Assembly (NCBI RefSeq): GCF_017471675.1
Contig: NZ_JAFUSK010000037.1
Coordinates: 1-64,000 of the forward strand
Length of the DNA stretch: 64,000 bases
Direction of reading: 5' to 3'
Source: Pseudobutyrivibrio sp.
GTDB taxonomy: Bacteria > Bacillota > Clostridia > Lachnospirales > Lachnospiraceae
Made by a program: the position numbers and the translations under genes. Positions 35,029-40,763 of the stretch are shown here, piece by piece. Positions within the stretch are counted from its first letter, which is position 1; the number at the start of each line of letters is the position of its first letter. Below the pieces are notes generated by a model, which made no database searches, was not told the DNA's origin, and saw only the letters and a list, made by a program, of their open reading frames with translations.

Positions 35029-35997
35029 TTATTCGCCCTCCGTCTCATCAGAAATAGCTGCATTCTTAGCAGATGTTCCGTCGTTAAGAATAATCTTTGA
35101 CTGACCATCTGTAATTATTACACGAGTGTTAGGTAAAATTTCTTCTACCTTTTCAAAGAACATTCGCTTCTTAGTAATCTCAGGATACATTGAATACTGC
35201 TCGTACATCTTGTTAAACTTTGAAGCCTCACCTGTTGCTTCTGCGATTCTTGCATCCTTAGATGCTGTTGCATTTTGAACAATCTTATCAGCCTTAGCCT
35301 CTGCCTTTGGAATCTGCTCGTTCTTGTACTGCAATGCATTATTCTTAGCTGTATCAGCACCCTGCTTAGCAGTTTCTACTGCCTTAAATGCAGCAATAAT
35401 ATCTTCAGTAGGAGGTTCAGAATCCTGGATAGTAATATTCTGAACAGAAAGTCCTATCTTAGTATCTTCTAGAGACTTAAGCATGGCTTCCTTAACTTCC
35501 TGCTCGATAAGCCCCTTGGCTGTAGTCATAGCCTCATCAACAGTGTAATTAGATACTACTGTTCTGATGTTAGCAAGAGCTATATTTTCTAAGATTTCTT
35601 CAGGAGTCTGAGAATTATATAGATAGGCCACTGGATCAGATACCTTATACTCCATATAAAAATCAATATTAAGCAGGTTGAAATCAGATGTAATCATAAT
35701 GCCATCTTCTTCTGATGCAATATTCTGTCCATCCTTAACATAATATCCAATTCCTGTGCCATGTGTTGTTATATCCACAGTTTGAAGTGATTGCCATGGA
35801 GCCTTAAAATGCATTCCTGCCGTATCTACCCTAACAACCTTTCCAAACTGGGTAACTACACCATTCTTTTGCTCGGAAATAAAATAGATTGAACGAAATG
35901 CTATAATAGCAACAGCAATGACAAGCACAATTATTTTCCAATAGCCCGACATATCCTTAATGCCATCACTCACATTATCTTTAAATTTGTTTTTCAT
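35029..35997 (-). CDS. hflK: HflK, SPFH/band-7 membrane protease modulator
   Basis: 322 aa. N-terminal anchor (WKIIVLVIAVAIIAF), SPFH domain with QKNGVVTQFGKVVRV, then an Ala/Lys-rich helix (about 200-265) with repeated A-E-A-K patterns typical of the family. Transcribed first, followed directly by hflC. Confidence 0.9.
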   Translation of the reverse strand: MKNKFKDNVSDGIKDMSGYWKIIVLVIAVAIIAFRSIYFISEQKNGVVTQFGKVVRVDTAGMHFKAPWQSLQTVDITTHGTGIGYYVKDGQNIASEEDGIMITSDFNLLNIDFYMEYKVSDPVAYLYNSQTPEEILENIALANIRTVVSNYTVDEAMTTAKGLIEQEVKEAMLKSLEDTKIGLSVQNITIQDSEPPTEDIIAAFKAVETAKQGADTAKNNALQYKNEQIPKAEAKADKIVQNATASKDARIAEATGEASKFNKMYEQYSMYPEITKKRMFFEKVEEILPNTRVIITDGQSKIILNDGTSAKNAAISDETEGE

Positions 35998-38940: not shown

Positions 38941-39190
38941 ATGACTTCTTGTGGGCTGCTTAAGAAAGAGCCAACAACAACTTGAAGTTGCCAAATAATA
39001 TTTTTCTTCAGAAAATATTGGTATAGCTCCAGTTCCTGTTTTCTGATAAAAAACCAAAACCTATGACTTCTTGCTGACAAAACAAGGAAATTGTCAGCAA
39101 GAATCCTGCTTTGCAGGACATGAAAATAGATAAATCTATTTTCATGGTATTTACGATTCCTGAAAAACTGATGTTTTTCAAGAATCTATA
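38941..39190. other. Cluster of adjacent stem-loops (candidate structured RNA or DNA)
   Basis: Gene-free stretch with successive inverted repeats: CAACTTGAAGTTG (38978-38990); AATATTTTTC-ttca-GAAAATATT (38997-39019); a 13-bp perfect stem TTCTTGCTGACAA (39068-39103); TCCTGC-ttt-GCAGGA (39104-39118); CATGAAAATAGAT against its complement (39119-39146); GATTC.TGAAAAAC-tgat-GTTTTTCA.GAATC (39155-39186). The last four are placed end to end with almost no bases between. No T-run identifies them as terminators. The 3' arm of the last hairpin contains the 22-nt dispersed repeat. Confidence 0.6.
39169..39190. repeat. 22-nt dispersed repeat, copy 2
   Basis: Exact reverse complement of 27302-27323. It overlaps the right arm of the last hairpin and ends 22 bp before the first TACTATCT-type word of the left 52-bp array. 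Confidence 0.85.
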
Positions 39191-39212
39191 CAAACCCATT
39201 TTCCATGAATCT

Positions 39213-39559
39213 ACTACCTACACATATTAATTGCTCATAGATAGTAAGGCTTTCCACAAAAGCTACTATCTAAACAAGATTTTCTTTCTAAGATAGTAGC
39301 TATTTTTGCTACCCTTACTATCTACACATATTTTTTCCTCATAGATAGTAGCCATCTACAGAATAACTACTATCTATGCCATATTTTTCTTTTCAGATAG
39401 TAGTCCAACCTTTAATTACTACTATCTGCTGATAGATTTTTCTCGCAGATAGTAATACCTCTGAAAAGCTCTACTATCTATATCCATTTTTCTCTGTAAG
39501 GTAGTAGTAAAAGAGAAATTTATTACTATCTGCCAAGCTTTATTCCTATAAGATAGTAG
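39213..39559. repeat. Left 52-bp array: seven TACTATCT-N19-AGATAGTA units
   Basis: TACTATCT words start at 39213 (TACTACCT), 39265, 39317, 39369, 39421, 39473, 39525. AGATAGTA words start at 39240, 39292, 39344, 39396, 39448, 39500 (AGGTAGTA), 39552. The period is exactly 52 bp throughout and each unit is 35 nt. The 19-nt core is loosely conserved (ATTTTTC-like, pyrimidine-rich on the plus strand); the 17 bp between units is not conserved. It ends 40 bp before the stop of the nuclease-like gene. Confidence 0.92.
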
Positions 39560-39599
39560 CATCTACTTAATCTAGATATAGCGCATTAGCTATTCTGCA

Positions 39600-40391
39600 T
39601 TAAATCAGATATCTTTTAATTTTGTCCTCTACGAGTTTTACATCAATCCCTATTCCAGTAGCCTCAGCGGTAACAATTAAATTATCCCCTACTACAATTT
39701 TGGATTTTTCATACTTCGCAAGCTTTGCTAGATTCTTTTCTGAATATCCTACATCAGACCCTAGTCCAAAATGTTCCCAAAAGAATGTCTTTCTTTCTCT
39801 TAGATTTAAAAGGGCAAAATCCGGATAGCTCTTTCGTCCATCAAATAATGTGATTTCTGGTTCATATTTATAGATTACTCCGTGCTTATCAAATAAATCT
39901 GCCAAAATCTTTTCTGATTTTGAGCGAACCTCCTCTCCTTTATTGGTAGTGTAAGATGTAGTTAAATCAAATGTGTTTTGCTCACCCGTAAATTTGTTAT
40001 TCCATTCTTCAATAAATTCTTTATCCGTTTTTATTATGGGCTGCACCAATCTCTTTTTTCCTTCTGCTAAAACTTCATATGATTCACTAGTATGTGCTAC
40101 ATTATATTTTTTTACAAACCTTTCTATGGTCTTTTCCTGGGTGTAAAGATTGATGAGTAGTTTTTCATAATATTCTTTTTGAGCCAATCTTTTCGCTATG
40201 TCTCTTTCTGAAGAAGCTATGTATTTCAAATCTCTATTTTCTTCTCTATAATAGTACTGATAACAGCCATTGCTTTTCTTTTGCACTAAAGTGTAATTCA
40301 TAACATCCTTATATTTTTCTAGTTCTTTTAAAACATGCTCCTTCTGCCTTTTTATAAGCTCCAATTCTTCATTTAATAATTTTATATTCAT
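39600..40391 (-). CDS. PD-(D/E)XK nuclease-like protein with helical N-terminus
   Basis: 263 aa. N-terminal coiled coil (about 1-30), a Tyr-rich 'CYQYYYREENRDLKYI' segment, and a second helix. The C-terminal half has a nuclease-like order: SEKILADLFDK with an early Glu, YKYEPEI, then KSYPDFALL with Asp and FFWEHFG giving ExH in place of ExK, then KYEKSKIVVGDNLIVT. I recognise this as a common unannotated family in gut Clostridia, without known function. RBS GAAAGGATG upstream. It is the only gene between the two seven-unit arrays. Restriction, homing or array-binding functions are all conjecture. Confidence 0.8.
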   Translation of the reverse strand: MNIKLLNEELELIKRQKEHVLKELEKYKDVMNYTLVQKKSNGCYQYYYREENRDLKYIASSERDIAKRLAQKEYYEKLLINLYTQEKTIERFVKKYNVAHTSESYEVLAEGKKRLVQPIIKTDKEFIEEWNNKFTGEQNTFDLTTSYTTNKGEEVRSKSEKILADLFDKHGVIYKYEPEITLFDGRKSYPDFALLNLRERKTFFWEHFGLGSDVGYSEKNLAKLAKYEKSKIVVGDNLIVTAEATGIGIDVKLVEDKIKRYLI

Positions 40392-40418
40392 ATACTTTTA
40401 CATCCTTTCAACAGACTT

Positions 40419-40763
40419 TACTATCTATACAAATTTTTTAACAGCAGATAGTAGCTATTTTTTTAGACCTACTATCTACATATAATTTTCTCGCACAGAT
40501 AGTAGCCCTATCACCTACAACTACTATCTATGCCTATTTTTTCTTCACAGATGGTAGTCATTCAACTGTCCATTACTATCTGCAAAGTTTTTCTCTCTGT
40601 AGATAGTAGTCATTCCTATTTTTACTACTATCTAAACTTCTATTTTCTTCACAGATAGTAATACTCTATAATTTCACTACTATCTGTAAAGCAATTTTTA
40701 CCCAAGGTAGTAACAACTCCAAAAAACTTACTATCTAAAACCATTTCCACAATACAGATAGTA
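40419..40763. repeat. Right 52-bp array: seven TACTATCT-N19-AGATAGTA units
   Basis: TACTATCT words start at 40419, 40470, 40522, 40574, 40626, 40678, 40729. AGATAGTA words start at 40446, 40497, 40549 (AGATGGTA), 40601, 40653, 40705 (AGGTAGTA), 40756. The two words are always 27 bp apart; periods are 51 or 52 bp. It has the same orientation as the left array (pyrimidine-rich cores on the plus strand), so the two are direct, not inverted, flanks. It ends 7 bp before the comEC stop codon. Confidence 0.92.

Follow-up and report, generated by a model that had tools for sequence, protein, structure and literature searches.

Nuclease-like genes of Clostridia linked to arrays of helically spaced, clade-specific words

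A nuclease-like gene between two arrays

The question raised by this locus is whether a gene for a nuclease-like protein and the two repeat arrays that bracket it form one system and, if so, whether the arrays act as DNA or as RNA. The window, which is the whole stretch of DNA that was analysed, consists of 64,000 nucleotides of contig NZ_JAFUSK010000037.1 from Pseudobutyrivibrio sp. (assembly GCF_017471675.1, positions 1 to 64,000). ORF calling and family comparison place at 39600..40391, on the minus strand, a gene encoding a nuclease-like protein and putative word reader of 263 residues. It is flanked by a 3' (downstream) array at 39212..39558 and a 5' (upstream) array at 40419..40763, neither of them assigned to a strand. 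Each array comprises seven units of the form TACTATCT-N19-AGATAGTA, i.e. 14 words in which TACTATCT alternates with its own reverse complement and recurs in the same orientation every 51-52 bp; 10 of the 14 units are exact. In the left array, 12 of 14 words are exact and two carry one mismatch, and word offsets of 27/25 give a 52-bp period throughout. The right array, which lies 27 bp from the start codon, also has 12 of 14 exact words; its offsets are 27/25 except for two of 24, and its periods are, in order, 51, 52, 52, 52, 52 and 51 bp. Exact occurrences of TACTATCT-N15..23-AGATAGTA number ten in the window, all at the two arrays, and none was found in 100 dinucleotide shuffles. The arrangement given in the preliminary description, two seven-unit arrays with a 52-bp period on the left and periods of 51 or 52 bp on the right, is therefore real.

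The two arrays share one orientation and are homologous copies (74% over 211 bp), and the corresponding array pair of P. ruminis AD2017 (G004) shows 87% over 329 bp. The gene lies between comEC on one side and a gene for a 359-residue protein on the other. This order is kept in locus L021 and in genomes G004, G002 and G003, and also, by DNA alignment, in G023.

Other repeats occur in the window. A dispersed repeat of about 125 bp (38941-39066) is found at 81-84% identity at eight other places in the genome, on contigs C15, C44, C79, C11, C24, C4, C26 and C19; it adjoins arrays without a partner gene on C79, C11 and C19 and looks like a separate small repeat element. Next to this element lies a second repeat (39062-39190), with copies on C81 and C4 at 95-96% identity. 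Some one-mismatch words clustered within a coding region (35397-35558) were taken as chance.

Private words and their spacing

The genome containing the window (3.10 Mb, 92 contigs) has eight members of this gene family including the window gene, and the other seven encode proteins 23-39% identical to the window protein. Six of these seven have their own array, with a word that differs from TACTATCT. The upstream words of five members are ATGCATCC, TTACCACTGG, ACTTAA and, for two related members, CTGTCACA; one paralogue has a downstream array with the word GCGCCCAA (E 1e-4), and no array was detected in the flanks of the paralogue on contig C74. Within the genus, 28 of 29 genomes have homologues, in 1-11 copies each; homologues also occur in 26 of 291 sampled genomes of the class, including families other than that of the window genome, some of the matches in these 26 covering the nuclease part only. 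A species-level genome set yielded at least 567 stretches encoding relatives, some of them possibly partial, of which the best 80 were kept. Among the matches listed, the closest named relatives of the window protein belong to Pseudobutyrivibrio. No Pfam or NCBIfam family covers the whole protein in searches of these two collections.

Across the family, we collected 138 near-full-length, de-duplicated homologues from 170 gene calls in loci chosen by similarity, and searched de novo for 8-mers enriched over a Markov background within 800 bp upstream. An upstream array was found for 108 of the 131 homologues with usable flank at E<1e-3 and for 81 of 131 at E<1e-5, versus 2/60 and 7/77 distal control stretches of the same loci at the first threshold and 0/60 and 5/77 at the second. 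We rely on the stricter figure because AT-rich words of low complexity account for some of the calls near E 1e-3. No upstream array was detected at E<1e-3 in 23 of the 131. When homologues were grouped at 55% identity, 66 clusters had flank data; at least one member had an upstream array in 50 of them at E<1e-3 and in 41 at E<1e-5. The last word lies a median of 74 bp from the start codon (81 upstream arrays). Downstream arrays are rarer (21 of 133 homologues at E<1e-3, 9 of 133 at E<1e-5): the two-sided arrangement of the window locus is exceptional in the family, in which an upstream array is usual.

The words follow the proteins. Taking two words as shared when at least 7 of 9 letters match, we found among the 81 strong arrays that the word is common to 29 of 32 protein pairs at 70-99.5% identity, 16 of 35 at 55-70%, 28 of 141 at 45-55% and 4 of 874 at 35-40%. 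On average, words match in 7.6 of 9 letters at 70-99.5% identity but in only about 3.6 when identity is below 35%, and the correlation between words and proteins (Mantel r 0.387) was reached in none of 2,000 permutations. Word and protein clade covary, a check suggested in the preliminary description, and this supports gene and array being one system. TAC/GTA is present in 21 of 41 cluster words, the maximum in 1,000 shuffles being 17.

The spacing of the words is also constrained. A clear same-orientation period was obtained for 75 of the 81 strong arrays, belonging to 38 of 41 clusters. The mean periods of these 38 clusters lie at 50-54 bp (22 clusters), 62-64 bp (nine), 74 bp (three) and 83 bp (two), plus one outlier each at 39 and 42 bp, which whole turns fit poorly or marginally. 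Projected on a repeat of 10.5 bp, the periods gave a Rayleigh R of 0.86 (p ~6e-13; 0 of 5,000 uniform draws were as high), R being about equally high for trial repeats of 10.25-11.25, so that the exact helical repeat is not pinned. A second measure, the summed alternating spacings of 36 clusters, gave an R of 0.84, with edge values of 42, 55 and 61. The alternating spacings between words of opposite orientation show no such quantisation (R 0.19, p 0.09). The turn class, in bins that we set ourselves, must have changed at least 15 times on a quick tree of 75 proteins, and the period is therefore not one inherited value. Quantised periods of this kind look like those of sites on a B-form double helix, and we see no reason for them in RNA.

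Conservation was compared between orthologous or copied arrays, solo and gene-linked, in 15 pairs that are not all independent. Substitutions affected 0-6% of word sites but 3-37% of those in cores plus spacers, the words being lower in all 15 pairs; identifying words in one member of each pair, with one mismatch tolerated, biases slightly in their favour, and the pair L136/L150 showed little difference (1 of 56 word sites versus 4 of 128). This supports the selection on words that the preliminary description had read from the drifting cores and spacers of the window arrays, and the quantised periods support a constraint on spacing. The two arms of a unit do not change together in excess. The same change in both arms was observed 63 times versus 122 expected for <> pairs, and 70 times versus 76 expected for >< pairs. 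In 243 TACTATCT units, 17 changed columns were the same in both arms and 138 were not, and the changes are concentrated at position 6 (mostly T->C) and position 8, a pattern resembling that of a protein-binding motif. A search of Rfam returned a single sub-threshold match (21.1 bits versus a threshold of 70). Since words are more conserved than cores and the arms lack excess compensation, a duplex-DNA target is favoured over an RNA hairpin.

Solo arrays, cargo and turnover

Arrays also occur away from the gene. The exact TACTATCT unit (N17-21) is present 30 times in the genome, 10 times at the window locus and 20 times on seven other contigs. There it forms seven solo arrays of 11-19 words (one mismatch allowed) with mostly the same offsets, none of them on a contig carrying a homologue; they lie between unrelated convergent, divergent or tandem ORFs, and one is at a contig end. 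The genome was also searched for the words of two other family members: solo arrays of TTACCACTG are found on three further contigs (C31, C45 and C73) with a period of 52 bp, and those of TTCTGTCACA on four (C19, C26, C28 and C71), with one more elsewhere on C24, at a period of about 74 bp, so that both keep the period of their own family. The numbers of arrays are probably underestimated in drafts assembled from short reads, since C28, C31, C71 and C73 end in or near arrays. The proposal that gene and array form one unit holds for their linkage but not for any confinement of the arrays to the gene. In one intergenic region of C45 (L010:7265-7871, genome G000), TTACCACTG and TACTATCT arrays stand side by side.

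The TACTATCT pattern was detected in 10 of the 29 genus genomes, a backward control giving 0 in all. It is present in all six genomes that encode an ortholog at 60% identity or more versus 4 of 23 others (hypergeometric P 4.4e-4, with the 60% cut-off chosen after seeing the list); the four genomes with the pattern but without such an ortholog are G006, G013, G024 and G028.

Comparison of related genomes revealed several states of the same sites. The arrays at L009 and L011 are 85% identical over 310 bp and homologous over the array only; some arrays were thus moved or copied as units of about 300 bp. One site has a single array in G000 and G013, two arrays around 3.7 kb in G006 (L148) and two arrays around about 14 kb of genes in G023 (L294:2750-17270, contig C35); by eye, this 14-kb cargo looks polymorphic-toxin-like and small-immunity-like. 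At the comEC site, G006 lacks the gene and has exactly one unit left, and G024 has one array and no gene. The G024 array matches the 3' array of G004 at 94-100% throughout; we also considered it as a hybrid of the two G004 arrays and rejected this, since it follows the 3' array along its whole length. At the hemZ site, G000 has a 14-word array and G006, G013, G023 and G007 have none; the absence from these relatives indicates that the G000 array was probably gained after the split from G006. No target-site duplication was found at this gain site, and the junction is not clean. The slot upstream of hemZ in relatives without the array (L315, L316, L318 and L320) holds a different palindrome-like sequence. 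When the alignments of 14 comparable orthologous solo-array sites were read, six had an insert or a changed neighbour and eight did not (a raw count).

Arrays cut to one unit make up 3 of 15 in the gene-lacking genomes G006, G013 and G024 (G028 was left out) versus 0 of 37 in gene-bearing genomes (Fisher p 0.02, with few genomes and arrays that are not independent). We treat the link between collapse and gene absence as a weak lead. Decay of the words without the gene was not seen: in solo arrays, exact words amount to 80/126 (0.63) without it versus 214/318 (0.67) with it. Because word integrity is nearly equal, maintenance of solo arrays by the gene is not supported. Single perfect units stand at L311:856-890, L298:4364-4397 and L149:3844-3878, only in genomes without the cognate gene.

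The protein and its putative mode of action

A PD-(D/E)XK-type core, in agreement with the earlier assignment of the protein, occupies the C-terminal part (residues 147-263; 39603..39953, minus strand), with the motifs VRSKSE160, YE177, PD191F and WE206H207.G. None of 69 aligned homologues departs from E160, D191, E206 and H207, and the E, D and E active-site acids of this fold are thereby all present. The catalytic lysine of the E-x-K motif, which we take to belong two residues past the last acid as K67 of T7 endonuclease I, is replaced: position 208 is F in 34, L in 31, C in 2, Y in 1 and N in 1 of the 69. As the lysine is never present, catalysis may be altered or lost.

The RS..E, YE and PDF motifs of T7 endonuclease I, whose family comprises Holliday junction resolvases, align with the window family. 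The latter differs in having an extra N-terminal part, a replaced lysine and an invariant histidine beside it, and the profile match is weak (E 0.006, or 0.09 with a larger alignment). A PHROG family named Holliday junction resolvase matches the window protein (E 1.9e-5) and was not listed for three others scanned. The core also matches the C-terminus of the PADLOC defence candidate PDC-S68, with a best E of 4.5e-31 and in eight of eight members; PDC-S68 and S69 share this core but are large multidomain proteins. The same core appears in three plasmid records, under AAA family ATPases.

The N-terminal part (about residues 1-115; 40047..40391, minus strand) has conserved Q71 (66/69) and Y74 (67/69). 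Compared with Pfam and PDB profiles it gave no convincing match, only weak, coiled-coil-like or scattered ones; a resemblance to integrase-arm or AP2-like folds found no support in these searches. Covariation and position designate it as the putative word reader.

We searched viral records for the same combination. Ten matches in viral contigs all cover the nuclease part and none the whole protein; 94 viral stretches contain an exact unit, none more than one, and three contain irregular clusters of one-mismatch words. A single homologue turned up in 50,697 phage records: it has 29% identity, aligns with 94% of the query and lies in an unverified 4.2-kb record that does not contain TACTATCT. 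Gene and array together are not a usual feature of these phage genomes, and an origin from phages or plasmids finds little support in the viral, phage and plasmid records.

The reading with the best support takes the arrays as binding sites, in duplex DNA, for the protein of the adjacent gene. Judging from sequence comparisons, we find it fairly probable that this protein binds double-stranded DNA sequence-specifically, carries a resolvase-like nuclease domain and uses the arrays as its own sites for assembly, autoregulation and array recombination. The N-terminal part would read the 8-9 bp word of its clade. Copies of the protein would sit on same-orientation words, on one face of the helix and mostly 5, 6, 7 or 8 turns apart, and the bound copies would build a regular nucleoprotein assembly. 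With the array lying upstream of the start codon, binding probably also limits expression of the protein's own gene. In trans, the protein may bind solo arrays in intergenic DNA. The nuclease domain would most likely cut or resolve DNA at arrays and so promote recombination between them. Through such recombination arrays would spread, be duplicated or collapse, and cargo genes would come to lie between them; that the protein itself drives array turnover in this way is our preferred but unproven view.

A nuclease-derived transcription regulator, with the upstream array as operator and the solo arrays as operators of a regulon and with no cutting of DNA, would account for the position of the array at a median of 74 bp from the start codon, for the missing canonical lysine and for solo arrays kept at orthologous intergenic sites. 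We nevertheless hold it to be unlikely. The ORFs around solo arrays may be convergent, divergent or tandem, so that these arrays are not restricted to upstream positions, and arrays disperse and flank cargo; the arrays of 5-19 words in gene-bearing genomes exceed usual operators, which are shorter; and a dead domain would not be expected to keep three acids and a histidine unchanged in all 69 sequences. A role in chromosome organisation like that of MatP-matS or ParB-parS, in which the protein would bridge distant arrays, fits the helical phasing, the dispersal and the several independent array families per genome. Up to 11 gene copies in one genome would seem redundant for such a role, and single arrays, or the gene, are missing from some genomes whose relatives have them. 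To our knowledge there is no nucleoid protein with this nuclease core, and we consider the role improbable. The match to PDC-S68, the high and variable copy number and the cargo that looks toxin- and immunity-like would suit a defence or conflict system whose arrays hold or license a nuclease attacking invading DNA, but the similarity is limited to about the last 130 residues of a 1,200-residue protein, several species retain the gene locus next to comEC, and viral contigs have neither array nor whole-protein match, all of which makes such a system quite improbable. The hairpin-RNA array also proposed in the preliminary description, with transcribed 8-bp stems and 19-nt loops, can practically be discarded: the arms are inverted, read-through from comEC is conceivable and transitions are frequent among the arm differences (116 and 79 in separate counts), some of them tolerable as G-U wobbles, but compensation is not in excess, the periods are quantised by the DNA helix, the arrays take any orientation relative to genes and no Rfam match comes near its threshold.

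The DNA-binding reading we favour invites comparison with known partnerships of a gene and its repeats. By analogy, the system would work like a REPIN/RAYT pair built from unrelated parts. REPs also flank the TnpA-REP gene. As described in PMC8049555, REPIN/RAYT systems combine a vertically inherited gene with dispersed partner repeats that are commoner in gene-bearing genomes, and PMC8266576 reports that groups of RAYT proteins co-evolved with their own repeats. Ecologically, the system resembles REPIN/RAYT as described in PMC8049555, PMC3733652 and PMC8266576. Dispersed repeats and a co-evolving gene-linked copy are found here as well. The parts differ in two features that define REPIN/RAYT, the HUH enzyme and the single-strand stem-loop. 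TnpA-REP is, according to PMC8266576, an HuH enzyme processing single-stranded REP. In place of an HUH tyrosine transposase there is here a PD-(D/E)XK-type protein: no Y1 transposase family was listed in Pfam, NCBIfam or PHROGs (the last for four proteins), where the matches are PD-(D/E)XK cores. In place of a compact stem-loop there are many alternating words near whole helical turns, and arms of 8 bp placed 19 bp apart, without excess compensation and phased on the duplex, speak indirectly against a repeat read as a single-stranded stem-loop.

Tn7-type ends carry several transposase sites, and TnsA is a nuclease. The system described here resembles them in its repeated, putative binding sites and its PD-(D/E)XK protein. 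It differs in that the array-adjacent ORFs we read include no transposase gene and the window arrays share one orientation. At the one gain site examined (hemZ in G000), the junction is not clean and a target duplication was not detected. In open-access full text we recognised no description of such a gene-array system, which looks like a new kind of protein-repeat partnership.

It is conceivable, at a little under even chances, that Clostridia possess a second gene-repeat partnership, independent of REP/RAYT, with private words, helix-phased arrays, seeding of solo arrays, and gain, swap and loss of cargo driven by recombination. The family would be a large one without a Pfam or NCBIfam family name. 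If this is true, the reader domain and its often TAC-containing word would constitute a naturally diversified code for recognition of 8-9 bp, and since dozens of protein-word pairs covary, alignments could be mined for such a code and the result put to the test. Periods differing by single turns of the helix are a striking in-genome sign of assembly on duplex DNA. Set against REPIN/RAYT, the partnership would help in asking what makes bacteria retain such gene-repeat pairs, and it could give gut and rumen Clostridia a repeat-based means of shuffling accessory genes.
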